Assembly: GCA_033439255.1 (NCBI GenBank)
Contig: CM065884.1
Coordinates: 806,001 to 870,000, forward strand
Direction: 5' to 3'
DNA: 64,000 bases
Source: Hericium rajendrae
Taxonomy: Eukaryota > Basidiomycota > Agaricomycetes > Russulales > Hericiaceae
The notes below the pieces were generated by a model. It had not been told where the DNA came from. It searched no databases and was given only the letters and a program-made list of their open reading frames with translations. Positions 1,924 through 26,136 of this stretch are shown one piece after another. Position numbers and translations under genes: made by a program. Positions within the stretch are counted from its first letter, which is position 1. Each line of letters starts with the position of its first letter.

Positions 1924-2238
1924 AGGTGCTCAGAAACCAGTAAATGAGGTGAATTGGCATCACCAACCGTTCTCTATCCAAGCTTTATATGCGCCAAATC
2001 AGGTACGCCTTGTAGTGCTTTGAGACATTGTTCCACAGCAGGCCGCACAGCACATGGCATGCATCGTTTGTGGACGAGGCAGATTGTAATCCCGGTAATT
2101 GTTATCGGGGCAAAAGCATATGAATTGGGATCAAAGCGGAGCAGAATTGCACCGCTTTCTTTTCGCCTCGTGCTCGAACAATGGGAAGTCGGAAGCTTTG
2201 GACAAAAGATATGAAATACCGGAAGACATGAGGAGGCC

Positions 2239-2278
2239 ACGCGTAAACACACATATCACGTGACCGTGTTGTTATAAG
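2239..2278 (+). promoter_or_regulatory. Promoter block of family A copy 1
   Basis: ACGCGT at 2239-2244 (matching the yeast MluI cell-cycle box), TCACGTGACC at 2256-2265 (a perfect CACGTG E-box) and TTATAAG at 2272-2278 occur in this order about 90 nt before the ATG. The same order and spacing recur before the gene at 6809. The E-box plus AT-rich box recurs before 8415 and, inverted, before 14038. The 1924-2369 interval is the shared divergent promoter with the nuclease-like gene; nothing else is seen in it. Confidence 0.6.
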
Positions 2279-2369
2279 GCCCAGCCTGTTGGATTTACGG
2301 CGCTTGCCCAACTCACGTCCTACGCCGCCCATCTATCATCATTCTACACGTCCTGCGCCCACTTCTATC

Positions 2370-2983
2370 ATGTATCCCCAAATCGAACGGTATACCATCG
2401 AATATGAACGCGATGCTGAGGGAAACAAAATCCCAGATCGTATATCGGGTTACAAGTTGACCGAGCAGACCATTCAAGCTCGCCGCAAAGTCCGTCCCTG
2501 TTCACTCCAGCTCACGGATGCACCTATCTTACCTGTGTTCTCTAGTATCGCCAGGCTTTGATGAAAGGCCGCGAGCCCATGGTCGATCTGCCCAACCACC
2601 TTCGCGCCGATCCGCGCAGCCCCTACCTGCAACCACCCAAGCTGAAATACGGCCTTGCATTCACAACCGAGCAGCTACTGGATTGCGCCGAACGCTATGA
2701 GCTGCCACTGGAGGACCTACCCGTCGAGCGACACGCTCTGCACGTCTGCGATGCGCTCTGCGAGGTCGACTCACTGTTGTCCGGCGCCTGCAAGATGATA
2801 CTCCGCATTTCCGTGCCGATCGACGTGGACAATGAGTGGATGGTTGCGCTATATGACAACTACAACTGGTGGTCGGAGCGCCTTGTGCCAGAGGAAGAGG
2901 AGGAGGTTGTGACCCTCATTCGGCGGGCACTGAAGATCGATATGCCTCTGAAGTGGTATTACGACGCCTCGCCTTCTTCATGA
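2370..2983 (+). CDS. Small orphan protein, family A copy 1 (subtype I)
   Basis: Two exons: 2370-2489 (120 nt, starting MYPQIERYTIEYERD) and 2546-2983, joined by a 56-nt GT-AG intron and giving about 185 residues. Exon 1 holds the family signature DAEGNKIPDR followed by a Gly-Tyr-Lys-Leu-Thr stretch. Exon 2 starts YRQALMKGREPM and carries KYGLAFTTEQLLDCAERYEL, a hydrophobic strand with PIDVDNEWMV, the hallmark LYDNYNWWSE, a run of five Glu, then IRRALKIDMPLKWYYD at the C-terminus. There is no signal peptide or membrane segment. Function is not recognised. Four paralogues lie within 12 kb; the closest are at 8415 and 13418. The reading frame is intact. Confidence 0.8.
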
Positions 2984-3866
2984 GCTTCGTAGCCAGGGCT
3001 GGTGAGTCGGCGTCAATTCATCACATGTACTTCGCTCACAGTGCTTTCTCTAGCATACCTCCCTTCATGTTCCTTCCTTGCCTGCATTCTGCTATTTACT
3101 TCACATGTTCATTGCTATCGTCCTGCTTTCACGGAGTAATCGTGTGTATGATCTCGCCTTAACGTATAATATTTGCTACGCTATTTCTACTCGAGTGCTT
3201 GCGTCAGGAATTTGTTGGCTACGATGTGCATGCTTGACCATCGCGAGGTACGTTTGTCAGTGTCCCGGTATGGTCAATGCGCATCAAAAATCATTATATG
3301 TCCTGTAGGACCATCAACGGCCCATTTTCATGCATCGCTTCTGAGCCTTGTCCCTCCCATCTCCCGTCGCACCTCTGCGGGGGCCAACTGAACGTACGTG
3401 GGACTCTTACACATATCGCTTTGTCCCATCCATTGTGTTATCGGACGGTAGCGGATCTCATCTCCAGCAGAATGCCGGCTACAAACTAACGCAAACAAAG
3501 CCAAGGGCCGGCAGGAATACAACGTGTGTTGTGCGCAACGAACTGAGCATGCTCGTCGCAGGTGGAGTGCGGTCGACAAGTGCGAGACGTCGCTAGTGCG
3601 AGCAGCAACCGGTGTTTGACGCATTGACGGTGCAGTGTTTCACGAGCGAAACACAGTTGCGATTTCCTTTCTCCGACAGGCGTTCAGTTAACGTCGATTT
3701 GATTCCATTTGATTTCGTTGGAAGTTTGGATCAGCCAAATCCTGGCATTCGATCCCATTCAATTTCATTCGCGCCGATTCTCACTGGGAGTACTGACCTT
3801 TGGCTTTGGATATCATAAGCTACTGTCGCCAAACCCTCGCGCTTGTTCACCCTTGCATACACTGTC
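2984..3866. other. Intergenic, no gene seen
   Basis: About 880 nt between family A copies 1 and 2. Open frames here are short, overlap on both strands and match nothing else in the window. The CACGTG plus TATA block found before the other family A genes is not visible before copy 2. Confidence 0.6.
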
Positions 3867-4465
3867 ATGTCCGCCTTCCCCAGCCAACATCTCATCGAGT
3901 TTGAACTTGATGCGGAGGGCAACAAAATCCCCGATCCTCTTTGGGGATATAGGCTGACTGAGCGGTCGCTAGAATCACGCCGCGAAGTACGTTCCTCTTT
4001 ACTCTTAATTTCGCGCGCCTTTCCTCATCATATCACAGTATCGCCGCAATCTTGTTAAAGGACGCAAGCCTATGCGTGAACTTCCTGACTCTCTTCGCGC
4101 CAACCCACGACTTCCTTACCAGCAGCCTCCAATGTGGCAATACGGCCTCGCATTCACTTACGAGCAGCTCATGGACTGCGTCGCTCGCTTCAACATACCT
4201 TTGATCGAGGTATCCCCTGATGAGCAGGCTCTTCGCCTGTGACGCTGTTCTCAAGGTCAATAAATTGCTGACCACCGCTTGCAAAATGGTTATCCATATC
4301 ACCGTGCCGATCGACGAGGAGAACTCGTGGATGGTCGGTCTTTACGACAACTATAACTGGTGGTCCGAAGTCGAGGAAGAAGAGGATGAAGTCGTTGACA
4401 TTATCAGGCGGGCGCTGAACATCGATTTGCCGCTGCAGTGGTATCACGATTCCAGGCAGCCTTGA
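3867..4465 (+). CDS. Small orphan protein, family A copy 2 (subtype II), frame broken
   Basis: Exon 1 is 3867-3986 (120 nt, MSAFPSQHLIEFELD, with DAEGNKIPDP). Exon 2 starts at 4039 after a CACAG acceptor with YRRNLVKGRKPM. The frame stops at TGA 4240-4242 after the ALRL segment. The family sequence resumes in another frame as CDAVLKVNKLLTTACKM, then GLYDNYNWWSEVEEE and RRALNIDLPLQWYHD, ending at 4465. The step fits loss of a TG dinucleotide or gain of one base. Compared with copy 3 it also lacks three residues after NWWSE. It may be a pseudogene or an intact gene carrying a sequencing indel; other genes in the window carry similar breaks. Confidence 0.7.
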
Positions 4466-4734
4466 GGGACTTCGAGTCGTGGCCTGAATGTTCTCATTTG
4501 CGCGGACTCGCATAATGCATACTCTACATCATAATGCTTTCGTACCGTTGATATATTCTGTGTAGTCTGTCTTTTGTTTTCAGCTTGCATTTGATTCGAC
4601 ACCATTAAGCCTGCCGAATGATTTACGACGAAGGAATCAACGCTGGCATTTCGTGGAAAAAAAATGCAAAATATGAGATCACGGAGCAAGGTACAGATAG
4701 ATTATAGAATTGAGACACGGGGTATGGCTATGGT

Positions 4735-6350
4735 TTATATACCACGGCCCTTGCCCTTCGTATCCTTGCCTGCCATTGCTTTGCGTTGCTGCTCAAGTGC
4801 ACGAGCTTCGAGAGCGTCGCGTTCCTGCGCGTTCCGAGTCTTGCGCTTCGGCACTAGGACTTCCTCCTCTGCAAGCGCAGGAGCAAAGACCAAAGGATCA
4901 GAGTCAAGGCCTTCGTAGAGCGCGGGCCAATCGGCAGGTGAAGATGGACGGCTGGAGTCTGGTGGCAGAGGAGCTTCGTCGTCAATAGATAAATTGTCCA
5001 GAGAGTCGTTGACAAGCGAAGAACTGCTGGAAGAAGGGCCGGGTTCACTGTCGAAGACCGCTTCGTCTATATCTTCATTGTAGGAGCAAACTGAGCTGGC
5101 GCGGCTACTCCGCAGTGTGTTTCTCTCTGGCAGTAAGGCAGAGGCAGCAATTTCGAGCCAAGTCGATGCCTTGAAAGTCTTGTCTTTGTTTTCGGACACC
5201 TCGGTATTTGGAATGGGATAACGTTTTGCAACTGCGGCAGCAGCATCCTTCAACGCTTTGCCAGATACTTCGTCGGCAGCCTCCTTGATTTGATCACGAG
5301 CATGTTGCTGTTGTTTTCATCATTTAATGGGGCATTATACCAGCTAAAAACGAACGGGAACGCACCAAAGATGCCTCAGATGGTTCGTGGTTACCTGACG
5401 GAGCCTGGAACCACGATGGCTGGCACGACTCTACATGCGGAGCTGTCGCCGTGTCCAAAGCCACTCGAAAGAAGGGACCTAATATCCGACTCTCTGGATC
5501 GCAAACGTCCTCAAAAGCATAGATGACATTAGGCTCGAGCATTTTTGAGGGTGGCTCTGCAAGAATGATGAGAGCCTGGACGGGAAATGATGCAACGTGC
5601 CAAGTGGTATATACCTGGGAAGCTTTCGACTCTCTTTCGCTTCCGTGGCCCCGAAATCGCGGCCAACTGCTTCGCCAATTTCTCCGACGGGTCCATCTTG
5701 CGAGGTGGAACATATGCATCGAGGTCGTCAGGCTTGTTGTACTCAAAGAAGGCGAAGCTGTTCCCCATGAGCACAAAAGCATGCAACCTTTCTGCACCGT
5801 GATGCCGAAACCCGAAGTATGCCTGCTCGCTAATTTGCGCGATGTAATCTTGAAGACCCTGATGAAGAGCACCAGCACTTGCGGGGCTTCGCCAGTCTTC
5901 CATGGAGTCCGGCGCCTTGATCTCGACTACATATAATAGGCGAGGTGGTTGGGAGGGCAGCCAGTCCAACGCCGATACACGATCGAAAGCGAGCATAACG
6001 CCGAAATCTGCGTCCCGCCACTGCTTGCCCTTTATTGGATGGTGCCATTCCAGGCGCGCTTGAGGATAGCACAGAAGTGCGGACCCCTTGTCTTTGGGCT
6101 TGCATATGGCACTATGAATGGAAAGGATTAAGTCCGATACGGCATACGAAGGGGCCTCAGTCGGAAATCTTGCAGCGGCGTTGGTCTGCGAAGCATGTAG
6201 GGCCGTGAAGAAATCGTCCTTCGTAAGTAGAATCAACTGGAGAAAAAATCAGCATAAGAATTAGCAATTTAGATCACAGCTGAACAACTCAGAGTTCAGA
6301 CGCACCGAAGGGTCATTGTAACACGCTTCTCGTTGAGAATGATCAGCCAT
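4735..6350 (-). CDS. Putative PD-(D/E)XK nuclease-like protein, copy 2
   Basis: Paralogue of 298-1923 with the same three-exon plan. Exon 1 starts at the ATG at 6348-6350 (MADHSQREACYNDPS, donor GTGCGT). The central exon starts LILLTKDDFF and has WRDADFGVMLAF, then about 20 residues later LLYVVEIKAP, then IAQISEQAYFGFR and VLMGNSFAFFEYN, so the proposed Asp/Glu/Lys triad is kept. The frame shifts near 5612, after RKRKRVESFPG, and resumes as VYTTWHVASFPVQ, consistent with a one-base indel. The last exon starts about QHARDQIKEAADEVSG, is Ser- and acid-rich and ends KGKGRGI. Conservation of the motif between diverged copies supports a working fold. It is divergent from the family A gene at 6809. 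Confidence 0.7.
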
Positions 6351-6707
6351 CGGATGCGAGAAGGAGGGCGAAGGCAAACGAGAATGAAGGTAAGAGATCT
6401 GGGAGACCGCCGTCCTTTCATTTATATAGAAAAAGCGGCAGCAGCAGTGCTTTGATTGTTGCCTCTAGCAGGCCACAGTCCACTCGGACAGCTGCTATTC
6501 GCATTGTCGTTCTACGATTCGGAGGTGGACTGCCCTGAGTTGCCGATGATTGTTCTTGCGGGTATAGCACTTTTCCGTGAAAAGCGTAGCCTGCGCTAAT
6601 TGAGCGCCAAGCTATGTGTCGCTTTTCTGCCGCGTGGCTCATTGTTCCATGAAACGTTGGAATGGTGGTGGTGAACTGGGTCGAAGCTCAGTCACCACGA
6701 GGCGACC

Positions 6708-6749
6708 ACGCGTAACCAGTCCACAATCACGTGACCGCGAGCTTATAAG
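6708..6749 (+). promoter_or_regulatory. Promoter block of family A copy 3
   Basis: ACGCGT at 6708-6713, TCACGTGACC at 6727-6736 and TTATAAG at 6743-6749, in the same order and nearly the same spacing as at 2239-2278. It lies 60 nt before the ATG at 6809, inside the 458-nt divergent interval shared with the nuclease-like gene starting at 6350. The rest of that interval shows nothing further. Confidence 0.62.
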
Positions 6750-6808
6750 AAGTCGGCGAGAAACCTGGCGCTAACTTACTTTCCCTCTTACCACCCCCAT
6801 ACATTGTC

Positions 6809-7419
6809 ATGTCTTCCCGCTATAGCCTCTATCTCGTTGAGTTCGAACGTGATGCCGACGGGAATAAGATTCCTGATCCTGTCTGGGGATACAAGTTCAC
6901 TCAGCGGTCGCAGGAAGCGCGTCTCGAGGTTCGTCTCGAGGTTCTCGTCTACTGCCACAAAGGTCCCTTATCAACTTGCATCAGTATCGTCGCAACCTAG
7001 TCAAAGGGCGAGAGCCTATGCGCGAACTTCCAGACTACCTTCGCGCCGACCCACGGTTTCCCTACCAGAAGCCACCAAGGTGGCAGTATGGCCTGGCGTT
7101 TACCAATGAGCAACTCATGGACTGCGTGGCCCGCTTCAAAATTCCATTGATGGACGTATCTGCCAATGAACATGGCATTCGCCTTAGCGACGCTATCCTC
7201 AAAGTCAACAAATTATTGACCGTCACCTGTCAAATGGTGATCCATATTACTGTGCCGATCGACGTGGAGAATTCGTGGATGGTCTGCCTATATGACAACT
7301 ATAACTGGTGGACGGAGCAGCTGGTCGAGGAGGAGGAGGAGGAGGTTGTGGACATCATCAGACGTGCGCTGAACATGAAGTCGCCGCTGCAGTGGTATTG
7401 CGATTCCAGACAGCCTTAA
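6809..7419 (+). CDS. Small orphan protein, family A copy 3 (subtype II)
   Basis: Exon 1 is 6809-6928 (120 nt, MSSRYSLYLVEFERD, with DADGNKIPDPVWGYKF). Exon 2 is 6985-7419 and starts YRRNLVKGREPM. At the exon 1 end, a CTCGAGGTTC unit is duplicated, creating two donor-like GT sites 12 nt apart; the first gives the 120-nt exon seen in all copies. Exon 2 carries QYGLAFTNEQLMDCVARF, then PIDVENSWMVCLYDNYNWW, an acidic run of seven Glu interrupted by nothing but Val at its start, and RRALNMKSPLQWYCD. The frame is intact. It is closest to copy 2, defining subtype II (YRRNLVKGR start, PLQWY end). Function unknown; no signal peptide. Confidence 0.8.
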
Positions 7420-8353
7420 CGGGCTTGTCGCCATGTTGTAAGTCGCCGAGATCTACTTCTTATTCTGCGCTGACTCGGGCGTTCCAGTTTGTTTCCTATT
7501 GCACGCTATCAGATCTGCACGCTACTGTATTATACGTCTTGACTTGCTTTCGGACGGAACACGCTGTACAATGGTCATTTTCTTTCTTTCTGACATCGTC
7601 TTCTCCAGTCTCAAAAGCGACCAAACTAAGTTCGCATGCCACGTTCTGCCGGGCCATACGAAACACCTGTCCCGTCCATCTATCTCACTCATCGATCAGA
7701 GCACCGACCTCCCGTATGTTTTAGCACTGATGCGATGGACTAAATGGCGAAGACCAAGCACTTTGGCAGACTGTCATGTTTTCATAACTATGCGGAAAGG
7801 TGAGTCGTACTCAATTTACACTTGCTCGATGACATTCGATATTCGCAGGACCATAACTACCGCTCGGAGGTATGTATTGCTAACGGGAAAGATATAAATA
7901 CAGGTCACCTGCAATATAGCGTTTGTTCAAGGACAACAGACGTATGTCTTCCCAGCGTGAGCTTGAATATGTCCGTCTCGCTGGATTTGACGCGTTATCA
8001 TGGTTAAGGGACATGTTGCAGCCCAGGGAAAGGAATGCGATGCGACAGAATGGAACCCGCTCATGACGTACCGTCCCAATGCCTCGCCACACCCTCGACC
8101 GACTGGAGATGTTAACTCAATGTCTACCGCAATTGCTTTGGTCTCCATTGACAAGCTGTGTGCCTCAAGTTGCTGCGCGGGAAAATACGAGACGACCGTG
8201 CGCTCTAGGAACACAGTCCCGAACATATAGGCGCGATATCTGATGGGTACCAAATCGCGCTTTATTTCTGCGTCAATCGCCATTGTTGAAAGTACAATAG
8301 CGTCGCGGAGATGCTAGCATGGACGTAAAGTACTTCAACGCGAGTCCACTGCA
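7420..8353. other. Intergenic, no gene seen
   Basis: About 930 nt between family A copies 3 and 4. Open frames are short and overlapping, and none resembles another gene in the window. The last part merges into the copy 4 promoter. Confidence 0.55.
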
Positions 8354-8377
8354 TCATGTGACCGCGTCGCATAATAA
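8354..8377 (+). promoter_or_regulatory. Promoter block of family A copy 4
   Basis: TCATGTGACC at 8354-8363 followed by ATAATAA at 8371-8377, about 40 nt before the ATG at 8415. The flanking sequence from about 8340 to 8390 is almost the same as the inverted promoter of the copy at 13418-14038, pointing to a recent duplication. Confidence 0.58.
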
Positions 8378-8414
8378 CACGGCAACGCAGCTCGTCTCGT
8401 CTGTCTCCACTACC

Positions 8415-9024
8415 ATGTACTCTCACGCCAAACGGTATATCATCGAGTACGAACACGACGCCGAGGGAAACAAAATTCCAGATCGTGTTTGGGGCTATAA
8501 GTTGACCAAGCAGACGATTCAAGCTCGCCGCGAGGTTCGTCACTGCTCACACTGACTTGCAAATGAAACCATCTCACCTTGAGTCCCAGTATCGCTAGGC
8601 CATGACGAAAGGCCGAGAGCCCATGGAGGATCTACCCAACCACCTTCGCGCTTACCCGCGCCGCCCTGACCTGGAGCCACCCAGACTGCAATACGGCCTT
8701 GCTTTCACGACCGAGCAGCTACTGGACTGCGCCGAGCGCTACGAGCTGCCACTGGTGGACCTGCCCCTCGAAAAATGCAATCTTCGCGTCCGCGACGCAC
8801 TATGCGAGGTCAATTCGTTGCTGTCCGGCGCGTGCAATATGATCCTCCGCATTACCGCACCGGTGGACGTGGACAACGAGTGGATGGTCCCGCTGTATGA
8901 CAACTATAATTGGTGGTCTGAGCGCCTTGTGCCAGAGGAGGAGGAGGAGGTTGTGACCCTCATTCGGCGGACTTTGAAGATCGATATGCCTCTGAAGTGG
9001 TACTACGACGCCTCTCCTGCATGA
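8415..9024 (+). CDS. Small orphan protein, family A copy 4 (subtype I)
   Basis: Exon 1 is 8415-8534 (120 nt, MYSHAKRYIIEYEHD, with DAEGNKIPDRVWGYKL). Exon 2 ends at the TGA at 9022-9024. At the acceptor position used by the other copies (AG 8588-8589) the exon would read Tyr-Arg-stop, because the usual CAG codon is TAG at 8596-8598. The same change makes a new AG at 8597-8598; splicing there keeps the frame and gives AMTKGREPMEDLPNHL. The rest is intact: QYGLAFTTEQLLDCAERYEL, PVDVDNEWMVPLYDNYNWW, an acidic run, RRTLKIDMPLKWYYD. Function unknown. Confidence 0.76.
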
Positions 9025-9396
9025 GCTCCATAGCCGGCCCTTGTGAGTCGCCATTTTGTGTGCTTTACTCTGGTCATGCCCAACTATCTAGCGTCTCTTC
9101 AATCATGTTTGTGTCTGAAATGCAGTCTGTTACCTACCTCGGTCGTCGTCATATCGGTTCGCGCGTTTATGTGGTCCGCCTGCGCCGAGCGCCCGGAACG
9201 GCGGTCCCCGATGACGGTCCCTCATCATACTAGCCTGGTGCTCAGTCCTGCTAACTTACTTGCTTTGATGGATCAGCGATATTTGCATGGTAGAATTATA
9301 ACTATTCAGTTTCTCTTTAATGAAATTCGACAGCCACGGTGCCACACCCGATATACTCTTTGACAGGTAAGGATTCATATTAGTATAACGTGCAAG
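9025..9396. other. Intergenic between convergent genes, nothing seen
   Basis: About 370 nt between the 3' ends of a family A gene (plus) and a family B gene (minus). It probably holds both 3' ends; no distinct poly(A) or other motif could be assigned. Confidence 0.5.
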
Positions 9397-10085
9397 CTAC
9401 GTTCCCCCTTCGATCGAGCTCAACTCGCCACGGTTTTCCCCACTGACAACAGGCTCGTACCACCGCGCCGGGCTATCCTTAGCATCTACTGCTAGAAAAC
9501 CCTGGATCCATTCCACCATTGCTTCCTTTGTGAATCCACTCTTCGCCATCCTCTTCGTGGCTTGGGTTACTTCATGATTAGAATAGATCCCCACCAGCAC
9601 CGCACCGCGTCTCTGGCCCTCTCTTGAATACGTGACTTTAACATGGACAAATGGGCTGCGGAACAATTCATTCATGTGCGCTCGTGTCGCCTCGTATATA
9701 CCCGGATCCGACTCCTCGGCGGTCACTTGTTCTTCGGTCATGAGCTGCGCTTTGATGACTGCGGTTTCTAGTTGCTCCGTACTGCAGTGAATGCCAAACA
9801 GGTATGTTTTGGGCATGCCCTTTGTGGCATAGCCGTGGTCTAGAAGGTGAGGAGGAAGATCATCGCAGCCCACAACCTTTATCTTTTCCTGCAGGTGATC
9901 GTTCATTGATATAAACCACACTAATGCATGTAATGGAGAGCTGAAATCCGAACCTTAGTCCGTCTCTGGTTCTGGAGCACCTCAGGATACTGAGGCTCCA
10001 TTTGGAACCAAGTGTCCACGTTGCCAGTGAGAGACGATTCAGTTACGGTAGGAGTAGGAGACGGCGATCGCTCGGCAGGTGTCAT
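9397..10085 (-). CDS. Small orphan protein, family B copy 1
   Basis: Exon 1 is 9954-10085 (132 nt; ATG at 10083-10085; MTPAERSPSPTPTVTESS). A roughly 65-nt intron runs from donor GTTCGG to a CTGCAG acceptor, and exon 2 runs from 9888 to the stop at 9397. Exon 2 has GCDDLPPHLLDHG, then YLFGIHCSTEQLETAVIKAQ, a strand VHVKVTY, the signature VLVGIYSNHEVTQATK, MVEWIQGFLAVD and ARWYEPV near the end. The N-terminus is Ser/Thr/Pro-rich, probably disordered. The frame is intact. Function is not recognised. The Tyr-x-Gly-Ile start, central Tyr-x-Asn and terminal Arg-Trp-Tyr parallel family A. Confidence 0.75.
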
Positions 10086-10432
10086 GATGGGTTGGGAACA
10101 GTGAAGGAACTAAGAATTCGAACATCGCTTGCCAATCATAAGTACTTTCCCGAAACAGACATGCGCTCTGTAAATGATGTCGGGAAGGAACAGGTCTCTG
10201 CTTCGATCCAACACTTACTGAGAAAGAATAAAAGATTCTCAGTAGCCGTATATTACACACAGTAGTACAGAAGCAGCCCTCCACGCATAATTCGTGCGCA
10301 CAGTGCACAGCAGCTTTGACCCCGCGTTTAGGGAGAAAGAATAAAAATTCATCAGTATGCTGCAAGAAAACAACCGCAGAAACCTCTTCGTTACATCATA
10401 TAAATCGTCTGCAAACAGACTCCCCTCCGAGC
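10086..10432. other. Intergenic, nothing seen
   Basis: About 350 nt between two minus-strand family B genes; presumably the copy 1 promoter and the copy 2 3' end. No TATA or CACGTG block like that of family A is visible. Confidence 0.5.
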
Positions 10433-10985
10433 CTAATATTCAGGGACAAGAGGCGCATACCACCGCACCTTGTCCTCAACGCCCAGAAGCTCCCGAATAT
10501 ATTCCACCATCTCCTCCTCTCCAACCCCCCTCTTCTTCATAACCCTCCGCACCGCCGTCCTATAATGATTCGGATATATCGACACCAGCGCCGCAGAAAC
10601 CTGGTCCGCCCTGCGATGCGCAACCGTGACCCTAACGAACGGGCAACCGAACCGGCCGATCAGATGGGCCTGCAGGACCTCGTACGCGCTGTGTCCCTCC
10701 TTGGCGAGCCCGGCGTTGAGGACCGCGGCGTTCAGCTGTTCCGTGCTGCAGTGGATGCCCCATCGGTATTCTTTGCGTTCGAGGCCGAAGGTGGGGATGA
10801 GTTGGTCTAGGCAGTGTAGTGGGAGCTCGTCGCAGCCGTGCATTTCTATCAGATCCTGCTGCTGTGGGAGACTGTTGAATATTATACCTGTATTAGATCT
10901 AGCTGAGATCCAAACCGTTATCTGGTCCTGATCTCGTTGGTGGAGGCGGGTGTGCGACGAACGCGATTGTCACGTTGCCGAGCAT
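10433..10985 (-). CDS. Small orphan protein, family B copy 2
   Basis: The main exon ends at 10433 and begins near 10855, at a CAGCAG acceptor, with DLIEMHGCDELPLHCLDQ. It carries YRWGIHCSTEQLNAAVLNAG, VRVTVAH, ALVSIYPNHYRTAVRR, MVEYIRELLGVEDK and VRWYAPLVPEY, clearly paralogous to copies 1 and 3. A likely first exon starts at the ATG at 10983-10985 (MLGNVTIAFVAHPPPP), since copy 1 has a similar Gly-Asn-Val; the exact exon 1/2 join could not be settled, so the upstream limit is tentative. The main exon is intact and GC-rich. Function unknown. Confidence 0.68.
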
Positions 10986-11074
10986 AAGTAAAGCACGAAA
11001 GTCAACAAAGCGTCTGCTTCAGACATATCATGCATGCAAATTTATGTCAAGTCCTATGAAAGGATCAAAGATTA

Positions 11075-12637
11075 TCAGCAGACAAAGCAAAAAGTCCTCA
11101 GTCCTTCACACCGCGATCCCGACCCCATATTGCGCAACAGCGGATCAAGCGACGCAAGCTCGTCCTTGATCCCGTTGCGCGCAAACGCGTCCAGGTCCTT
11201 CAGCAGCAGCGAGATGATTTTCTGCCCGCCCGTCAGCATCCGCGCAGTCCAACCAAAGTCACAAAGAGGAAGAAGGAAGGGGAGAAGGCGCACCTTGAAC
11301 TTGCCGTCGATCTTGAGCATCATCTCGCCGAGCGCGGGCGTCCAGCTCGGCGGCGGGCTGCCCATCCCCCCGCCGCCCGCACTGCCGCCGCCGTTCGCGA
11401 CGCCCCACAGCCCGTCGGACTCGCCGACGGGCGCGGCGCCCTCGCCGCTGAAGAGGTAGCTCACCTGTTCGCCGTGTCAGCCGGAGTGCAAGGTGGAGAG
11501 GAAGGAGGGAGGAAGCATACGCCGGGGTGGGGCGAGAGCCCGAGGATGTGTTGCGAGGCGTGCGGGAAGGCGGAGGGCCCGAGGAGCTTGGAGAGCTTGT
11601 GGTATGTTTCGGAGAGGATGTCGAGGAGGGAGAGGAGCGTTTGCGAGTAGGAGAGGGCGAAGGGCTGGGTGAAAGGTTAATGCGTGCGGGGGAGAGGATG
11701 GGGAGACGCACGAGGTGCGGGGTGACGAGGTAGGATGCGTCGGAGGAGTCGGGGGTCATTGCTATGCTGTAGTCGGTCATGCCGCCTGCTTGGCGCTTCT
11801 GTGGGCGTTTCCATATGCGCTGAGGATGTGCTGAAGGTTAGGTGGGGGTTGTGGTGGGGTGGAGAGGACGCACCATGCGGTTGATGGGGCGTTCGCCGTC
11901 TTCCTTTGCCTGCTCGTATTCCTGCAAGGTATTGAGAATGGCGCGGAGAAGGTCTGGTGGATGATGGATGTCGAAAAGGGTGGAAAGAGACATGCCGAGC
12001 GTCGCGAAACGCGTTGTACTGGTCGAACGACCGGCATGAAGAGATATAAGACGGCGATATAGAACTGCAGACCCACCGTTTCTTCATAGCAGCATCGCTG
12101 AACACGCGACCGAGTTCGCTGCGCGAGATCATAATAGTGTGGAACCAATGGCTCCGTCTAACGGCGCACACGAGCATCGTTCAAGAGCAGGACTCACAAG
12201 GAAATCGTAAAGACGCACCCGTCGTGGACATTACGCACATATGTCAATGTGATGATGCGCTTCTGCACCAGGTCCCGCAGATATTCGATCGACGCTGCCT
12301 GCGGGCTCGTCACGCCGCCCCCTACTGCCCCGGTCGAGTCCGAATGCATGCTCTGCACGTCCCATTCCCGCGTTGTCTGGGTCGGTGTGAACGATGCCGC
12401 GGTTGGCGTCGCGGACGACACGCCGCCTGCCATAGATGCTGCAAACGACCCATGGGTTGCCGTCTGGGGTGGTGGCGGCGGCGGCGGCACTGGTGTCGGC
12501 ACGGGCGACGGAGATGTGGAGGGTATGGACGAGGGCGCGGACGAGGATGTGGAGGGTTTGAAGGACGAAAGGAGGTTCTGGGCGGAGGACTTGCGGCGCA
12601 TGGTTGGGCGATGGGAAAGGCTGCCTTCCGTCGACAT
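11075..12637 (-). CDS. Conserved fungal protein of unknown function
   Basis: The start is the ATG at 12635-12637 (MSTEGSLSHRPTMRRKSSAQ). About six exons follow. After a Ser/Pro-rich disordered N-terminus with a polyproline run come EYLRDLVQKRIITLTYVRNV, HWFHTIMISRSELGRVF, MSLSTLFDIHHPPDLLRAIL, then ILNTLQEYEQAKEDGERP, QAGGMTDYSIAM, a segment ending HASQHILGLSPHPG, a Gly-rich VSYLFSGEGAAPVGE region, and finally KIISLLLKDLDAFARNGIKD and ELASLDPLLRN. A 72-nt in-frame intron (GTGCGC to GGGCAG) separates KIDGKFK from KIISLLL. From memory this architecture belongs to a conserved fungal family with no assigned role. It is single-copy here and interrupts the orphan cluster. Confidence 0.75.
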
Positions 12638-13417
12638 TTTAATGGAGTGCTTCGGCGGTTGTTGGGCCCAAAGAAGAGGATAGATGCAATGTCTGATGCT
12701 CCTGCCGCAGATGCGCTATGGGAATCTATAGGCGCCCGTGAGGCGCGTCGCCAACTCGCTTGTCGACCCCGCCTCCCTTTGCTCCTCCATTTGTTCTGCC
12801 CATTCGAGACCCGACCTTGTTCTCTGCATCAATTTAAGACTCTTCCTCGAGCTTCATCTGCCAATCTCGACGTTATCATGGTCAGCAGCGCGCGTTTCGC
12901 GCGCCTTCGAGCGTTCTGTAATCGATTGCGGGTTTAGCATTCGGGCTGCATGTGGAAGCACGTCCATCTGAAACTCAAGTCTGCATCCTGCAAGGCCCTG
13001 ACAAGCCCTGACTGGTTATAGTTCTGCTTTTTTGTCAAGCGCCACGAAGCTCTGTCAGGTACGCCCGTCAGATTGATGGCCACCGCCGTGATCTGCATGA
13101 TTCTGCAGCTGCGTGGTGGTTTGGGCAAGTAATTTGTGCCTAGATGCGTGTCACAGAAATCATGTTCTCGGATGGAAATGACATCTTGCAATTTCTTTTG
13201 AGACAGAGTCCTGAGGCAAGTTCGCGTCCTTCCCAGTCCCGACTAGCCATAGTCGGAGACTAACCGACTGATCTTATATTAAGCTACTGCGCGAATCAGG
13301 ATGAAGACGATTGAGATAGGTGGCAGATTGCCTTCTGGAAAGGAATATGAGGGAAGGGAAACCAGACAGTTTATCATGACCAAAGTGACGCGCACAAACA
13401 TGGCCTGGCTCCGGAGC
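12638..13417. other. Intergenic, no gene seen
   Basis: About 780 nt between the 5' end of the conserved gene and the 3' end of family A copy 5. Short open frames occur on both strands without family similarity. The first part is presumably the promoter of the gene at 11075-12637. Confidence 0.5.
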
Positions 13418-14038
13418 TCATGATGAAGGAGAAGCATCGTAATACCACCACAAAGGCATAACAATCTTCAGTGCCCGACGAATGAGGGTCACGACCTCCT
13501 CCTCTTCCTCTGGCACAAGGCGCTCCGACCACCAATCATAATTGTCATAAAGCGGGACCATCCACTCAATGTCCACGTCCACTAGTGTTGTAATGCGGAG
13601 TATCATCTTGCACGCGCCGGACAGCAATGAATTGATCTGACAGAGCGCGTCACAGACGTGGAGGGCGTGTCGTTCGATGGGTAGGTCCTCCAGCGGCAGC
13701 TCGTAGTACTCGGCGCAGTCCAGCAACTGCTCGGTCGTGAACGCAAGGCCGTATCTCAGCTTGGGTAGCTCCAGGTCAGGCTTGCGCGGGTCAGCGCGAA
13801 GATTGCCGGGGAGGTTGTCCATGGCTCTCGACCTTTCATCACGGCCTGGCGATACTGGAATACATAAATGAGATGGGTTGCATCCATTCGCAGTCGAAGC
13901 GGTCTGGCAAAAACGAACCTTGCGGCGAGCTTGAATGGTCTGCTCGGTTAACTTGTAACCCGAGAGACGATCTGAGATTTTGTTTCCCTCGGCGTCGTAT
14001 TCATATTCGATAGTATACCGTTTGATTTGAGAGTACAT
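13418..14038 (-). CDS. Small orphan protein, family A copy 5 (subtype I)
   Basis: Exon 1 is 13919-14038 (120 nt; ATG at 14036-14038; MYSQIKRYTIEYEYD with DAEGNKISDR). Exon 2 runs from 13854 (acceptor CCAG, starting YRQAVMKGRE) to the TGA at 13418-13420. Just after KGRE the expected Glu-Pro-Met codons read with one C too few (CC where copies 1 and 4 have CCC), so the frame shifts and resumes as MDNLPGNLRADP. Then follow RYGLAFTTEQLLDCAEYYEL, VDVDIEWMVPLYDNYDWW, an acidic run and RRALKIVMPLWWYYD. It is closest to copies 1 and 4 but on the opposite strand, and its promoter matches copy 4. Confidence 0.75.
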   Translation of the reverse strand: MYSQIKRYTIEYEYDAEGNKISDRLSGYKLTEQTIQARRKVRFCQTASTANGCNPSHLCIPVSPGRDERSRAMDNLPGNLRADPRKPDLELPKLRYGLAFTTEQLLDCAEYYELPLEDLPIERHALHVCDALCQINSLLSGACKMILRITTLVDVDIEWMVPLYDNYDWWSERLVPEEEEEVVTLIRRALKIVMPLWWYYDASPSS

Positions 14039-14082
14039 GGTGGTTGAGACAGACAAGACGAGCAGCGTTGCCGCCATACGTG

Positions 14083-14106
14083 TTATTATACGACGCGGTC
14101 ACATGA
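14083..14106 (-). promoter_or_regulatory. Promoter block of family A copy 5
   Basis: On the minus strand TCATGTGACC (complement of 14097-14106) is followed by TATAATAA about 10 nt on, 45 nt before the ATG. Order, spacing and flanks match the block before the gene at 8415. Confidence 0.58.
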
Positions 14107-14559
14107 TGCAGTGGACTCGCGTTGGCACTAAACGGTCCTCGCTGACAGCATCTCCTGGACGTTCCATCTCACCTCGCGACATCGGATTCGACTCGACCCA
14201 ACGTCTCTTCCTACCAACTCGCATGACCTGCTCGAATGACAGGACACTCATGATGCATCCTTATCTAGAAATTTCCGTAGACGCCGCGGAGTCGTTTCTT
14301 TTCGACATAACAGTCGTACACGCCTGTGTTGACGTGTGACTGCATCGATATCAACTAGAGATGCGAGCTTCTTTCATCCTATCTTTGTGACCCGTCGCGA
14401 CGTTGACCTTGTATCTAGACTGAGTCTTGCGGCTACAAGTATTGGTCTTGACGATATAAAAGAGTAACTCATAACAGGTGCGACTCTTTGCTGTACACCC
14501 TAATGCATGGAAGCTCATTTACTTGCCATCCGCCTCTACCAGTGAACTTGTGATCCGCC
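14107..14559. other. Divergent interval between family A copy 5 and family B copy 3
   Basis: About 450 nt. A region near 14455-14465 reads gatataaaagag, a plausible TATA box about 100 nt before the ATG at 14560. Nothing else was recognised. Confidence 0.45.
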
Positions 14560-15331
14560 ATGATACCAGCTCAACGATCGCCATCTCCCACTCCTACCGT
14601 GACTCAGTCGTCGCCCTCTCGCTACGCGCATGCTTCGTCTCAGACGGATCCTCTGTGCCAAATGTCTCCGGATCAGATAGAGGTTCGTGTTTTAGCCATT
14701 CTATAGCATGAAGTCGATCACCGTTTCCTACACCTACCGTGAATCAGTCGGCACCTCCGGGCAGCATGAGTACTTTGTGCCAGAGAGTGCCTCTAAAGCG
14801 CGTACCTCGGAGTCAATCTGAGGTTCGGATCTCAGTTGCATTCTCGTACGGTTACGCCACTCATAAAGCGATCTCCTGTAGCAATGGGAGTTGGAGGAAA
14901 TGAGCTGCGACGACCTTCCTCCGCATTGCCTAGGTCAAACTGCCGAAGTCCCTGGAATAGTGCGTAAAGAATACCGACGGGGCATTCAATGCAGCACGGA
15001 TCAATTGCGCGCTATGATCCGTAAGGCCGGGCTCGTCAAGGAAGCAGAAAGGACAGATATGCACCAGGCCTTACAGAGTCACCTAATCCGCAAGTTCAAC
15101 TTCCCGTTGATCGCCGTCAAAGTTGCGTTCCACAGGAAGGGCCAGGTATCCGCGGCAATGGTGTCGATATATCCCAATCATAACAAGACCGCAGCCCAGA
15201 AGGCTATGGGGAAGAGAGGAGTTAAGGAAAATGATATAGTGGGATACATTCAGCAACTTTTAGACGTAGGTAAAGAACCGCGGTGGTACGAAGAACCGCG
15301 TTGGTACGCTCCCGTTATCCCTGGTTACTAG
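14560..15331 (+). CDS. Small orphan protein, family B copy 3, with doubled first exon
   Basis: A first exon is at 14560-14682 (123 nt, MIPAQRSPSPTPTVTQSS, donor GTTCGT), homologous to exon 1 of family B copy 1. A second exon-1-like segment follows at about 14720-14822 (RSPFPTPTVNQSAPP, donor GTTCGG, same phase) but has a TGA just upstream in that frame. Exon 2 is 14882-15331, starting QWELEEMSCDDLPPHCL. It carries EYRRGIQCSTDQLRAMI, VKVAFHRKGQ, AMVSIYPNHNKTAAQK, IVGYIQQLLDVG and a duplicated Pro-Arg-Trp-Tyr near the end (EEPRWYAPVIPGY). Joining 14682 to 14882 gives an intact frame. Function unknown. Confidence 0.72.
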
Positions 15332-16243
15332 ACTGGGAGGGGTCCTAATCAAGGGGCTCTTTATGCCTTTACAATAATTCGGGACGTTGAGTCGCGCTGC
15401 AAGGGCCCGTGCGAGGCTACGGTGGCAGGACAATTTTGAAGGTAGGCATCAGTCGGAACATTCTGACCTTAGAATCATTGAGGCAGGCTGCTTTCGCCTT
15501 GCCTTCGGCGACGAAGTGCTGGCTGACCAGGACCGCCGTTTCGGGTGTGGGCTGATTACATTCCCGAGTCAGATGCTCTTATGCGCTCGTTGTCGCAGTT
15601 CTATCCCGTTACATGGCATCGAGCTCTAATCGAACATCGCCTTGTCTTCCGTAGCCTAGTCACACAACTTGAAGTTGGCCGTGTCACCAACTCCGTTATT
15701 CTTATCCAAACGTTCTAGATGTCTCGCGCTAGAGTTGCTCGCCCATCATACACGCTTGTGCCGCGTTGCATTGAAGGGCGAGTTGTCTGACATCAATTAC
15801 GCTTTCTTTCTGGTAGGCGAAGGGACCGGAAGCATCAAAGTACGTCTTCTCTGTTACATATGCTACACGCAGCAGATGCGCTAATCTCCGACTACGAGTC
15901 AAGGATCATGACTCGCGTCTGCGGACCTCAGGTTGCCTGCCACCGTGTTTACTACCTGGTCTCGTGCTCGCAGACCCTCGCCTTCATCTGCACATATGTA
16001 GGTAACGGAACATCGACACTGATAGGTCGCTGAATCCTACATCTCCGTCTGCCCCGTCTCGTCCTGAAAGGGCATTCAACGTGTCTGGACGTGATGCCGT
16101 TACGACAAATGGCAAGCACTTATTACCTTCGTGATGACTAAATCGAGACGCTGTCACATACAGCAGCATATAAACGTTCACTTCGAAGCTCGTACTGCCA
16201 GCTCAACATATCCTCCCGCCGATATTTACTGACAGCACTAAAC
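15332..16243. other. Spacer with duplicated upstream segment
   Basis: About 910 nt. The stretch near 15357-15395 (ending in cgggacgttgagtcgc) resembles 18235-18280, and 15790-15990 resembles 17230-17430. These look like joints of tandem duplication units carrying family B genes. No additional gene is supported. Confidence 0.55.
15790..15990 (+). repeat. Diverged direct repeat, left copy
   Basis: It shares with 17230-17430 an ordered series of short matches: taggcgaa with ggg nearby, atatgctacacg versus atacatgctgcacg, gcagatgcgctaa versus gcagacatgctaa, and the word tcgcgtctgcgg. Each copy lies about 250 nt upstream of a family B gene (16244 and 17458). Confidence 0.6.
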
Positions 16244-16852
16244 ATGCAATCGAATCCTTCGAGCTCTACTACCGGGGGACCCGTCGCGCTTACCGGCCAA
16301 TCTACACAACTCGCTGCACTCAGGAGGAGATATATTGTGCGTCTCACATGTCAACATACAGAGTTCTATATCAATCCTAACTGTGAACTTATAGCCACTG
16401 AAGACATTCAAACACGACGAGCTCCCCAAACATTGCAATGTGCGCTGGGCCCGCACGCGACAAGTCCACCCACATACCTCTATGGCATCTCTTGCTCAGA
16501 ATCATTTCTCTTCGATTATGCCAAGAAACACGACATTAAATATGCGAATGATGACTTGGCTGGGAGATCGACTGTGTAGTGGAGGCGATTACGGACATCA
16601 TGCAGAAAGCGTTCAATTGCCCTTTCATTACCACCAAACGTTGGAAGCAAGTGCAAGTGAACGGACAAATCCTAAATATGGTATTGCAGCGTATACAAAC
16701 CAGACGATGTTGGCGCCGAAGTGGTTGAAGAAGATTGGAAAGACATCGGTGGAAGAGGTCATCTAAAGATTCAAGAGGCGACGGGGATTCGTGACGAACC
16801 GATGTGGCACCCCAGCATCGGAGTCGTGCCAAAGGATGTTGCAGGTCTCTGA
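16244..16852 (+). CDS. Small orphan protein, family B copy 4, frame broken
   Basis: The ATG at 16244-16246 begins MQSNPSSSTTGGPVALTGQS. A donor (ATATT then GTGCGT) follows after 31 codons and an acceptor lies near 16390, but the phase is not settled. The next segment has PPTYLYGISCSESFLFDYAK, and a stop ends the frame at 16579. In other frames the family sequence continues as AITDIMQKAFNCPFITTKR, then KYGIAAYTNQTMLAPKWLKK and KTSVEEVI, then KIQEATGIRDEPMWHPSIGV to the TGA at 16850-16852. At least two frame steps are needed, so it is a pseudogene or indel-damaged. It is closest to the copy at 17458. Confidence 0.62.
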
Positions 16853-17457
16853 TTCGTGATGTGTAGATGCCCACATACGTAGTGGAAGGAACTTTATGCA
16901 ATCAAGTAGAAAGAGTGCGACAGTTCATCGCAGGCCATCGCGCGACGGCCGACGCTCCGAGCGCCCGGCGCAGGCGCATCACTCCGAGTCGGCGGCTCCA
17001 CGCCTGCAATTCCACGCGACGTTGAGCAGCGTTGAGCTCGTGTCCAACATCTCCCCGTCGTGAAATGTTGCCTGGTCGAATAACCAGATGCGGGCCATGC
17101 CGCCGTTTCTTCCTTGCCCAAATGTCAACCCAGAGTCGCTTCTCTCTGATACACTGGCGGGCCGCTTTGCATTGATAAGACGACATCAGCCATGAATGGC
17201 ATCTTCCAGGAGCAGAAGAAGGTCAGTCATCTGGAACTGATTCTTTTTCCGATAGGCGAAAGGGCAGATCCAGTCATATTTATGTCAATGCGCGTTATAC
17301 ATGCTGCACGTGGCAGACATGCTAACTTATGACTACTAGCTCAGATTAACTTATCGGCTCGCGTCTGCGGGCTGGCTGTCGTTGCATCTGCCACCTGGAT
17401 CGTGCAGTCGCAAACTCCCCAACTCCCTCGATTACAACTCAGTGACCGAAAAACAGC
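16853..17457. other. Spacer with duplicated upstream segment
   Basis: About 600 nt. 16878-16900 (tacgtagtggaaggaacttt) recurs at about 18228-18250, and 17230-17430 repeats 15790-15990. No gene is supported; open frames at 16894-17186 on the minus strand overlap each other and lack family similarity. Confidence 0.5.
17230..17430 (+). repeat. Diverged direct repeat, right copy
   Basis: Partner of 15790-15990, again just upstream of a family B gene, supporting tandem duplication of a gene-plus-promoter unit of about 1.4 kb. Confidence 0.6.
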
Positions 17458-18081
17458 ATGGGTAGACTGTTGGGTTCTGTGCCGGCCCCGGCTCCACCTC
17501 TGAGTCCTGTGGAGACATCCAGCGGTCAAATACTGAGATCCACCCGGAGTGCGAACCTAATCCGGTCTCAGGTCCGTGCATCTCACATCCTCAGCATAGC
17601 TCTGAATGCTCACCCTGTCGCGTGCTAGCTTCCGACGTTTACGGATGACGAGTTTCCCGAGAGATTGAAGAGGCTACCCGAGCAGCAACGAGACCCACCG
17701 CCCAAATTTCTCTACGGCGTCGCATGCAATGCAGCAACACTCGTGCGTTATGCCGAGAACAACAACATCACTGTGCTCCAAGGCATAGAATTTTCCGACA
17801 CGGTCAGGAGCATTCGGGATCATATGAAAAACGCATTCGACACTCCTTTCGTGAGAATCTCACTATTAGACAAACGTGGGGAGCAGGGGCAGTATCTGTA
17901 TGGCGTTGCGGCGTATAACAATCACTTGTATTATACGGCACCGCCGTACCTGGAGGCGACGAAAAAGCCGACGATACCCGAGGTCATCGAAAAGATCCGA
18001 CTCGCATTGGAGATTTTTGACGAGCCGAGGTGGTACGCCGAGAGTGGCATAACGTGGAGCGAACTTAGGAGTTTCATCTGA
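17458..18081 (+). CDS. Small orphan protein, family B copy 5
   Basis: Exon 1 is 17458-17571 (114 nt; MGRLLGSVPAPAPPLSPVET; donor GTCCGT). A 57-nt intron follows. Exon 2 is 17629-18081, starting LPTFTDDEFPERLKRLPEQQ, giving 188 residues. It carries PPPKFLYGVACNAATLVRYA, PFVRISLLDKRGEQGQYLYG, VAAYNNHLYYTAPPYLE, IPEVIEKIRLALEIFDEP and RWYAESG. The frame is intact, and this copy gives the clearest view of the family core: Tyr-Gly-Val strand, helix, Phe-Val-Arg-Ile strand, Ala-Ala-Tyr-x-Asn, C-terminal helix and Arg-Trp-Tyr. No signal peptide or catalytic motif was recognised. Confidence 0.75.
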
Positions 18082-19362: not shown

Positions 19363-19462
19363 GGGCATGTAGCTCAGTGGTAGAGCGCGCGCTTCGCACT
19401 GGCTTACCTAATATGGTTGTCACGTGTGCGCGAGGTCCAGTGTTCAATCCACTGCTTGTCCA
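19363..19462 (+). tRNA. tRNA-Ala(CGC) with 28-nt intron, copy 1
   Basis: Acceptor 5' strand GGGCATG pairs with CTTGTCC at 19455-19461, with discriminator A at 19462. G3-T70 (19365 with 19459) is the alanine identity wobble pair. There is a T6-T67 mismatch. The anticodon stem CGCGC pairs perfectly with GCGCG at 19428-19432. The anticodon CGC is at 19395-19397. The T arm is CAGTG-TTCAATC-CACTG. An intron at 19399-19426 lies at the canonical position after base 37. Pol III terminator TTTTT follows at once. It reads the alanine codon GCG. Confidence 0.93.
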
Positions 19463-19752
19463 CTTTTTGTTTTGTCGAGGCATGCCGATTTGCGCGTTTG
19501 CCTCGGAGATGCTGTAGTTATTGAATATTGAGCACACAGTCAAGTTGATATTTGCGGACTCTCAGTATCGGAGTTTCAGGGGCAGATCTATATCAAGTAA
19601 CACTTGGTCCAGGGCCATCTCGTCTGCTAGTCGTGAACGCTGATGCCATCTTGCCCCATCACATTTACAGTCATCTTCAAATCCGCGTCGAGCCTGACTC
19701 CTCCGTTCGTTGAACTGAAGCGCGAGCTAAACTACCGTGTAGCGTCGAAAAG

Positions 19753-24958: not shown

Positions 24959-26136
24959 TCACGGATCTTCCTCCAACTCTTTCTCCTCGACAAGCTCCCA
25001 CGATCGGTCCTTACCTTCTCCTCCAAGTGACTTAACCCTTCCTTCCTTCTCCAGCTTCCGCAAATGCAGATCCAGCACCCGCGCAGCTGGCTCCCACAAT
25101 CCCACCGGATACTGCTTGTAAAGCCTCTCCGTGATTCCCCACGTCGTCCATGCCCTGTCCCCCTCGCCGTCCTCGTCTGCTTCAGCACGCCCACGACCTG
25201 TCCCTCGCGCTCGATCCGATGTTCGATGTACATCTTGATCGTCTGCCAGCCGTCCTTGACCACGGGGCCATGAGACGGGTAGAGGATATGTACCCTCCAG
25301 AACCAACGTTTCCCGACGTGGACTTGCCTGCCCAGAGCATCTTGCGCAGGCTCGCGAGGTAGGCGGCGAGGTCCTCGAAGACGGCTGTGCCCTGTCCGAG
25401 GACGCTGTCGCCCGTGAAGAGCGCGCGGTCGGGCGCGAAAAGCAGCGCGATCGAATCGGTGGTGTGGCCGGGCGTGTGGAGGACCTGAAACGTATCTGTA
25501 GGGTCCGAGGGCAGCGTAAAATCTGGCCATCTGCGAGGGGTGGAAGACGCCGAGCTCGGCGGGGGATGCGGAGGGCAACGTTAGGCTGTCCTTGGGAGTT
25601 TGCTGCGAGCTCCTGCAGATGCGCGTCGGCCTCGCCGGGCGGCAAAGGGAAGTTTGTGGACTTTCGGGCCGGAAAGGCGCTGTCTGGATTATAAGTTGTC
25701 CATAGCTCGCGCAAGAGCTGCAAGACGTGAGGGAGACCATCGACATGATCGTGGTGCCGGTGCGTGAGGATGATGTCTGAAACGAGCGGCTGCGTGGGGT
25801 GCGCTATTCCTGCTGTACTCAGAATGGCCTCCTGAGAACAGCAGGATACGCAGGCTCGCCGACGCCGGTGTCGAGCAGAACATAAGGGTTCGTGCAGCCG
25901 ATGATGTACGTGTTTGTGCCTTGCAGCGTGAATTTGCCTGGATTCTAGATGCTGTTTGCATAAAGGATGATTCGGGATATGCATTTCTGCTGAACTTACC
26001 TGACCCAATACGCGGATGACCTTATCGCTGAGCTGGACACAAAGTCCTCAGCCTAAAAGGCCCGCTGTATAATCTGTAGAGCAGCGTAGAAGTCACGTAC
26101 CCGAGTGATAGACGGCAACGCCTCTAGTTTATCCAT
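24959..26136 (-). CDS. LACTB2-like metallo-beta-lactamase fold hydrolase, frame broken
   Basis: Starts at the ATG at 26134-26136 ([12 protein letters not shown]), then short exons ([48 protein letters not shown]). The metal-binding motif [13 protein letters not shown] is clear, followed in another frame by [14 protein letters not shown] (metal His), [19 protein letters not shown] (metal Asp), [13 protein letters not shown] (metal His) and the C-terminal LACTB2 winged region [19 protein letters not shown] and [25 protein letters not shown]2 relatives are single-strand-specific endoribonucleases. About four frame steps are needed (first near 25827, where AGGAGG replaces an expected AGGGAGG). 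None introduces stops if followed, so sequencing indels are as likely as decay. Confidence 0.82.

Follow-up and report, generated by a model that had tools for sequence, protein, structure and literature searches.

Ascomycetes and fission yeast have supplied most of the killer and recognition systems known in fungi. In bacteria, toxin-antitoxin and toxin-immunity systems place a nuclease gene beside a small partner, copies of the partner alone are common, and the two genes diversify together. Among the fungal systems, the SPOK spore killers of Podospora and other ascomycetes form a multi-copy, duplicating family in which a PD-(D/E)XK domain does the killing and a resistance function is also present (PMC6660238). 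Allorecognition often depends on two tightly linked genes, and clusters such as gasdermin/protease and het-S/nwd2, in which an effector is linked to its controller, are described as units (PMC10197012). The HD1/HD2 mating-type pairs of Basidiomycota are divergently transcribed (PMC4915694). Here we describe a stretch of 64,000 nucleotides of Hericium rajendrae (positions 806001-870000 of contig CM065884.1, hereafter C7), called the window, which carries members of what appears to be a two-gene module. One gene, A, is small and includes diverged members labelled B, and the other, C, is nuclease-like; the two point outwards from a short common intergenic region, which in most cases carries CACGTGACCGCG close to the promoter of A. 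All family counts come from this single genome of 46.8 Mb in 19 contigs. One of its laccase exons is close to laccases with solved structures, among them one named Coriolopsis gallica, which would suit a white-rot Agaricomycete. Coordinates without a contig prefix are those of the window, and other copies are named by contig and position.

The A/C family resembles SPOK in being multi-copy and in having a putative PD-(D/E)xK-type domain, and differs from it in that SPOK joins nuclease and kinase domains in a single protein, whereas here the genes are separate and divergent and any killing by them would be putative. Pfam recognised no kinase domain in the C open reading frames (ORFs) at 915-1832 and 5529-6245, the tails lying outside that scan. 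With the bacterial pairs, as commonly described, it has in common the nuclease-like gene with a small partner, the partner-only copies and the co-diversification; unlike them, it is eukaryotic, contains introns, is divergent rather than operonic, and yielded no relative in limited scans. They gave no support to a bacterial or viral origin, although, reaching close relatives only, they do not prove absence. One C was compared with prokaryote genomes (24 stretches, none confirmed) and one A and gene C1 with IMG/VR (17 and 6 stretches, no relative confirmed); a phage tblastn with gene C1, of the same reach, gave two records at E 0.8, both from a single phage. PADLOC gave no match for 10 C members. 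The linkage of a candidate effector to a candidate controller recalls the fungal death clusters, but C is nuclease-like rather than pore-forming or NLR, and there are 15 copies in this one genome.

Four C queries gave 14, 15, 14 and 4 loci, all within one set of 15, and every one of these has a head-to-head A on its 5' side. The gap between domain edges is 729-1441 bp at 14 loci, 13 of which fall within 729-1058 bp. Ten pairs lie inside a 365-kb region of C7; the five C loci on contigs C1, C4, C6, C9 and C13 are all among the 14 closely paired, and off C7 only about 0.13% of the sequence is within 1.5 kb of an A. The fifteenth C (C7:632 kb) has its nearest A 2.8 kb away on the tail side, and the head-to-head A assigned to it is 12 kb off. 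In the distance profile of this C, the As at 645-650 kb rank 1, 3, 4 and 5 of 27, and the nearest A ranks 12. The ORF between this C and the matching A array (639306-642998 of C7, forward strand, within C7:633001-643000) matches RVT_1 (1e-31) and Exo_endo_phos (3.5e-11); by these domains it is an element of the long interspersed nuclear element (LINE) type, whose insertion would have pushed the pair apart. Wherever C can be read through its domain (13 copies), exon 2 of the partnering A is open. The remaining two C copies are frame-broken; the A facing C7:796 still has its exon 2 open, and in the A of C13:1328 a stop occurs close to the end. Judged from these sequences, the A-C pairing is almost certainly real. 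It is also asymmetric, since 40 of the 55 A loci are not the partner of a C, and no C without an A was seen among the loci found. The layout expected of a toxin gene with its partner, in which partner-only loci are allowed, is present at 15/15 C loci.

In the window, gene C1 (298..1923, minus strand) begins with a short exon 1 at 1923 and carries its PD-(D/E)xK-type domain at about 1257-1817; it faces A1 across an intergenic region of 446 bp (1924..2369). Gene C2 (4735..6350, minus strand), whose domain is 49% identical to that of gene C1, is head-to-head with A3. The inner exon borders of both C genes are putative.

The distances among the A partners follow those among the C copies. In a Mantel test with 15 pairs, taking the 645-kb A as partner of C7:632, r was 0.81 (0/100,000 permutations), and with the nearest A (629 kb) it was 0.74 (0/100,000). 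The two frame-broken C copies were included in the 15-pair test and left out of the 13-pair test and of the partner ranking; the 13 pairs with positional partners gave r 0.73 (0/100,000), and without C7:632 the value was 0.86 (n=12, 0/20,000). One pair per close clade gave r 0.77 (n=9, 12/100,000), and a second nine-pair set including the five off-C7 pairs gave r 0.76 (15/100,000). The frame-broken copies agree with what their As predict: the one on contig C13 is closest to the group of C6, C7:666 and C7:697 (0.39-0.44 identity), and C7:796 is closest to C7:725 (0.74 identity). Such matched distances show that A and C duplicated as a unit. The head-to-head geometry and the co-diversification would suit equally well a sensor-effector pair for immunity or allorecognition, where C would act as an effector that causes cell death or attacks the genome and A would be the variable sensor or regulator that releases C when non-self is met, in line with the two-gene organization of allorecognition systems mentioned above. 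We consider this unlikely: no NLR, gasdermin or HeLo-type Pfam match was found in the scanned exon 2 of A/B and domain of C (tails outside the scan), and the ratio of non-synonymous to synonymous substitution rates (dN/dS) between paralogues shows average constraint.

Another aspect common to most pairs is the promoter element. In the 600 bp that precede exon 2 (with the 645-kb A as partner of C7:632), CACGTGACCGCG was found with at most one mismatch (11/12 or better) in 13/15 paired As and in 10/31 unpaired A copies; in the background windows, which include the A upstream regions, it was found in 57/884. In the 13 paired As it is on one strand only, at -257 to -408 from exon 2. In the window, the C1/A1 intergenic region contains CACGTGACCGTG at 2257-2268, followed by TTATAAGG; the element of the C2/A3 pair is at 6728..6739 (plus strand) with a TATA-like TTATAAG after it, and further copies occur at A4 (8355-8366) and A5 (14094-14105). 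A TATA-like stretch follows the copies of the window.

The nuclease character of C is suggested by its conserved residues. Numbered on the domain of gene C1, E22, Y26, Q54, D72, E100, K102, Q128, Q132, A133 and F155 are invariant in 13/13 readable copies, the two frame-broken ones being excluded, at a mean pairwise identity among these copies of 0.30. This E...D...E-x-K...Q arrangement, with the Q in the next helix, is the catalytic pattern of PD-(D/E)xK nucleases, and the same one as in enzymes of the Cas4, RecE and lambda exonuclease type, from which C differs in having no sequence-profile match and a model confidence too low for assignment. No curated family could be attached to C: of 10 members, one matched Uma2 weakly in Pfam (E 0.025), the two other weak matches being unrelated, the ORFs 915-1832 of gene C1 and 5529-6245 of gene C2 gave none, and the best PDB sequence match was an unrelated protein at E 0.45. 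One C query placed a TAG where the C7:703 and C7:632 matches end after extension, and another read both copies with no stop inside the domain. When the weak structure model of C was compared by Foldseek, the best row was SSO0001 (E 0.028), presumably a Cas4-type nuclease, whose chains made up four of the top seven rows; the top 50 also contained RecE, HinP1I and lambda exonuclease, plus many APOBEC rows, and the VIA ranking favoured RadC, deaminases and JAMM proteases.

The tail of gene C1 is of low complexity and ends in a basic KGKGRAV, and that of gene C2 ends in KGKGRGI. Similar low-complexity tails with terminal basic runs occur in the C6, C7:666, C7:697 and C7:725 copies, that is, in the six genes inspected, and these basic-ended tails suggest that the C proteins are nuclear. 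One C clade (C6:2614745-2615569, C7:665652-666533 and C7:696934-697815) is distinguished by about 110 extra residues, acidic-looking and inserted in frame, that follow the E-x-K motif; the DNA blocks over its tails are 79-84% identical, compared with 70-73% for those that extend from A into the domain of C.

A toxic nuclease and a cognate antidote would be expected to leave just such traces: asymmetry between A and C, a nuclease signature and matched divergence. Of the readings considered, we therefore favour, tentatively, the one in which C would be a nuclease neutralised by its cognate A. C would be an effector that cuts nucleic acid and harms the cell in which it is made, and the small A protein, whose elements appear to follow a ferredoxin-like order, would bind and restrain the cognate C; the pair might then act as poison and antidote, working between nuclei as a driver or as a post-segregational killer, and the duplicated A genes without C could be retained as extra immunity. 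SPOK is a precedent for a PD-(D/E)XK domain as the killing part of a fungal driver (PMC6660238). The antidote role of A is what we infer from this arrangement. For the self/non-self idea of the original prediction, a head-to-head nuclease-like partner gene supplies an anatomical reason that was absent from it.

Several points weigh against a nuclease with its antidote. Congruent distances and linkage show that A and C travel together rather than that they bind or neutralise each other. With harsher thinning (10 of the 13 pairs, nearest A for C7:632) the Mantel r fell to 0.50 (p 0.008). The partner ranking is fuzzy, with the true partner first in 4/12 cases and placed ninth and fifteenth among 28 in two, and in the ranking for C7:632 the A at 693 kb is second and B3 sixth. 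The structure model of C is poor, with a predicted local distance difference test score (pLDDT) of 46.6 from two sequences, and the nuclease fold of C, whose core would be alpha-beta-beta-beta-alpha-beta, therefore rests on the residue pattern. The A proteins are not notably acidic (median isoelectric point 6.4, 16/40 below 6), and a role of A as an acidic DNA-mimic inhibitor is thus unsupported. The C4 and C7:703 pairs (2/15) are without the CACGTGACCGCG element, and this element is not private to A/C, since the exact word turns up 63 times in the genome, compared with 17 times for a reversed control, and 9 of the 63 are at A genes; the pairs may be using a promoter element of more general function. 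Finally, it would be unusual for drive to rely on distinct killer and antidote genes in this many copies.

A wider proposal, which we regard as doubtful, is that this genome of a single mushroom carries a eukaryotic, nuclear, two-gene nuclease-antidote family, with at least 15 cognate-specific pairs and an arsenal of orphan antidotes, that would be the fungal counterpart of bacterial polymorphic toxin/immunity arrays and would possibly drive competition among nuclei, either within the dikaryon or when spores are formed. A co-diversifying, multi-copy nuclease-partner pair without a convincing Pfam match, in a mushroom-forming basidiomycete, would offer a tractable model of conflict between nuclei in a common cytoplasm. 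No published account of such a family appeared among the matches listed, which consist of titles and abstract openings, with the subscription literature mostly outside them.

As regards the A/B family itself, the original prediction described five A and five B genes as two related families sharing one layout and radiating locally. All ten are present where they were placed, and the relationship could be established by profile: iterated searches (inclusion E 1e-3) seeded with A1 alone or with B1 alone each recover the other group and converge on the same superfamily, which excludes a chance resemblance. The A1-seeded profile finds A1, A3, A4, A5, B1, B2, B3 and B5 at E 1.7e-18 to 5.9e-49 (2.9e-26 for B1, 1.7e-18 for B2, 1.9e-24 for B3 and 2.4e-23 for B5), the two pieces of A2 at 1.4e-14 and 5.6e-25, and B4 only at 2.4e-5. 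By these profiles, A and B are one family, B being diverged members. In the tree, B1-B3 cluster on a very long branch (support 100/100) and B5 is separate on a long branch of its own; on this topology B is not cleanly one clade. The predicted A/B structure appears to have a ferredoxin-like, beta-alpha-beta-beta-alpha-beta order of elements (pLDDT 78), but it was modelled from four A and four B sequences pooled and so is no independent test of the common fold that had been proposed.

Merged sequence and profile searches of the contigs gave at least 55 A/B loci on 8 contigs, a lower bound obtained with a threshold of E<=0.01 or a profile match, counting fragments and excluding two weak matches on contig C11 (E 0.2 and 0.49). 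The radiation is real but not local, with 38 of the 55 in C7:460-825 kb. Pfam gave no match at E up to 10 for eight A/B proteins of the window, and among 40 members the best was DUF6226 (E 0.0029, 2/40), one of 11 scattered weak families, none convincing. When the A1 exon 2 model was compared with a viral structure library, no match reached E<=0.001; the top matches were small uncharacterised proteins, some of them from giant viruses, the best being one of Marseillevirus LCMAC101 (E 0.004), with a Pithovirus LCPAC304 protein also among the best. A unit of two adjacent A genes without C occurs at C7:707084-709368, C7:717274-719549 and C3:3591371-3592916; the C7 copies are mutually inverted and 84.5% identical in DNA, and the C3 copy is 82.9-85.6% identical to them.

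That As outnumber Cs, and stand in tandem beside the pairs with mostly open frames, together with the nuclease signature of C, could also be understood if C were a genome-defence nuclease to which A, as an exchangeable adaptor, gave target specificity against transposons or mycoviruses, the extra As broadening the repertoire. This is rather unlikely. Specificity subunits should have diversified surfaces, and the average dN/dS is low; no nucleic-acid-binding family was convincingly recognised by Pfam in the 40 A/B members; and the LINE-type element within one module argues at least against local protection.

In the window, seven of the ten copies look intact at the level of exon 2, which tempers the earlier count of ten genes. 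A1 (2370..2983, plus strand; exon 1 2370-2489, exon 2 2546-2983, splice sites by eye) is intact and encodes 185 amino acids, and A3 (6809..7419, plus strand) is also intact. The other three As have no C partner: A2 (3867..4465, plus strand) has a frame-broken exon 2 in two ORF pieces; A4 (8415..9024, plus strand) has an open exon 2, 83% identical to that of A1, and, judged by eye, meets a stop if spliced at the usual acceptor and so requires a shifted one; and A5 (13418..14038, minus strand) has a frame break where exon 2 starts. Open reading frames are present in the diverged members B1 (9397..10085, minus strand), B2 (10433..10969, minus strand, the coordinates being those of the open frame) and B3 (14560..15331, plus strand), as well as in B5 (17458..18081, plus strand), the most diverged, which as a lone query reaches A loci only at E 0.13-0.57. 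B4 (16244..16852, plus strand) is a degenerate remnant scattered over several frames. A short first exon had been attributed to each copy. It is found in all five As with a motif of the type ...E(Y/F)ExDAxGNKIPDxxxGYK..., and the first exons of B1 and B3 are of a different, Ser/Pro-rich type. Beyond the window, the motif occurs in the A partners of the C loci on contigs C1 and C4, is partial in those of C7:703 and C7:547, and was not seen in the other pairs inspected.

With respect to selection, dN/dS by NG86 was 0.07-0.40 in 43 usable of 46 close A pairs (three were saturated) and 0.13-0.31 in four C pairs; by YN00, where computable, it reached 0.58 in one A pair. Since the pairwise values are low in both, A and C are constrained on average. 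Positive selection was not seen as a pair average (NG86 below 0.41 in A and C), and the label of fast-evolving genes, taken in that sense, is not supported. Broken copies are present in both families. Average constraint and a promoter element used elsewhere in the genome would also fit an ordinary duplicated housekeeping pair that plays no part in conflict and consists of a nuclease for nucleic-acid processing together with its subunit; copy numbers of 15 and 55, a mean C identity of 30%, the pseudogenes and the orphan As fit it badly, and we judge it very unlikely.

The dispersal of copies over contigs C1, C4, C6, C9, C13 and C7, and the combination of a nuclease-like gene with a small companion, raise the question of a remnant or domesticated mobile element, where C would be a transposition or homing nuclease, A an accessory, and the pair would have spread itself. 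This appears highly improbable, given the common promoter element, the constraint in both genes and the presence of 10/15 pairs in one 365-kb region. Moreover, when the loci are compared as DNA, the 60 longest matches (413-4155 bp) have no common ends by eye; their homology blocks end differently, and a mobile element with fixed ends was rejected on that basis.

A mating-type locus could be ruled out. In contrast with HD1/HD2, no homeodomain match was obtained in the scanned parts of A, B and C; matches to the homeodomain family PF05920 are only at C3:1187854 and C1:2085043, and the STE3 receptors are on contig C2, where C2:4205734-4253418 holds a cluster of STE3-type pheromone receptor exons with 18 matches, some with internal stops. 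Two minor features of the window are a split tRNA-like sequence, seen by eye at about 19366-19463 (plus strand) in a window where ARAGORN found no tRNA, and an ORF at 24962-26047 (minus strand) with a beta-lactamase-associated winged helix (BLACT_WH, 3.9e-12).

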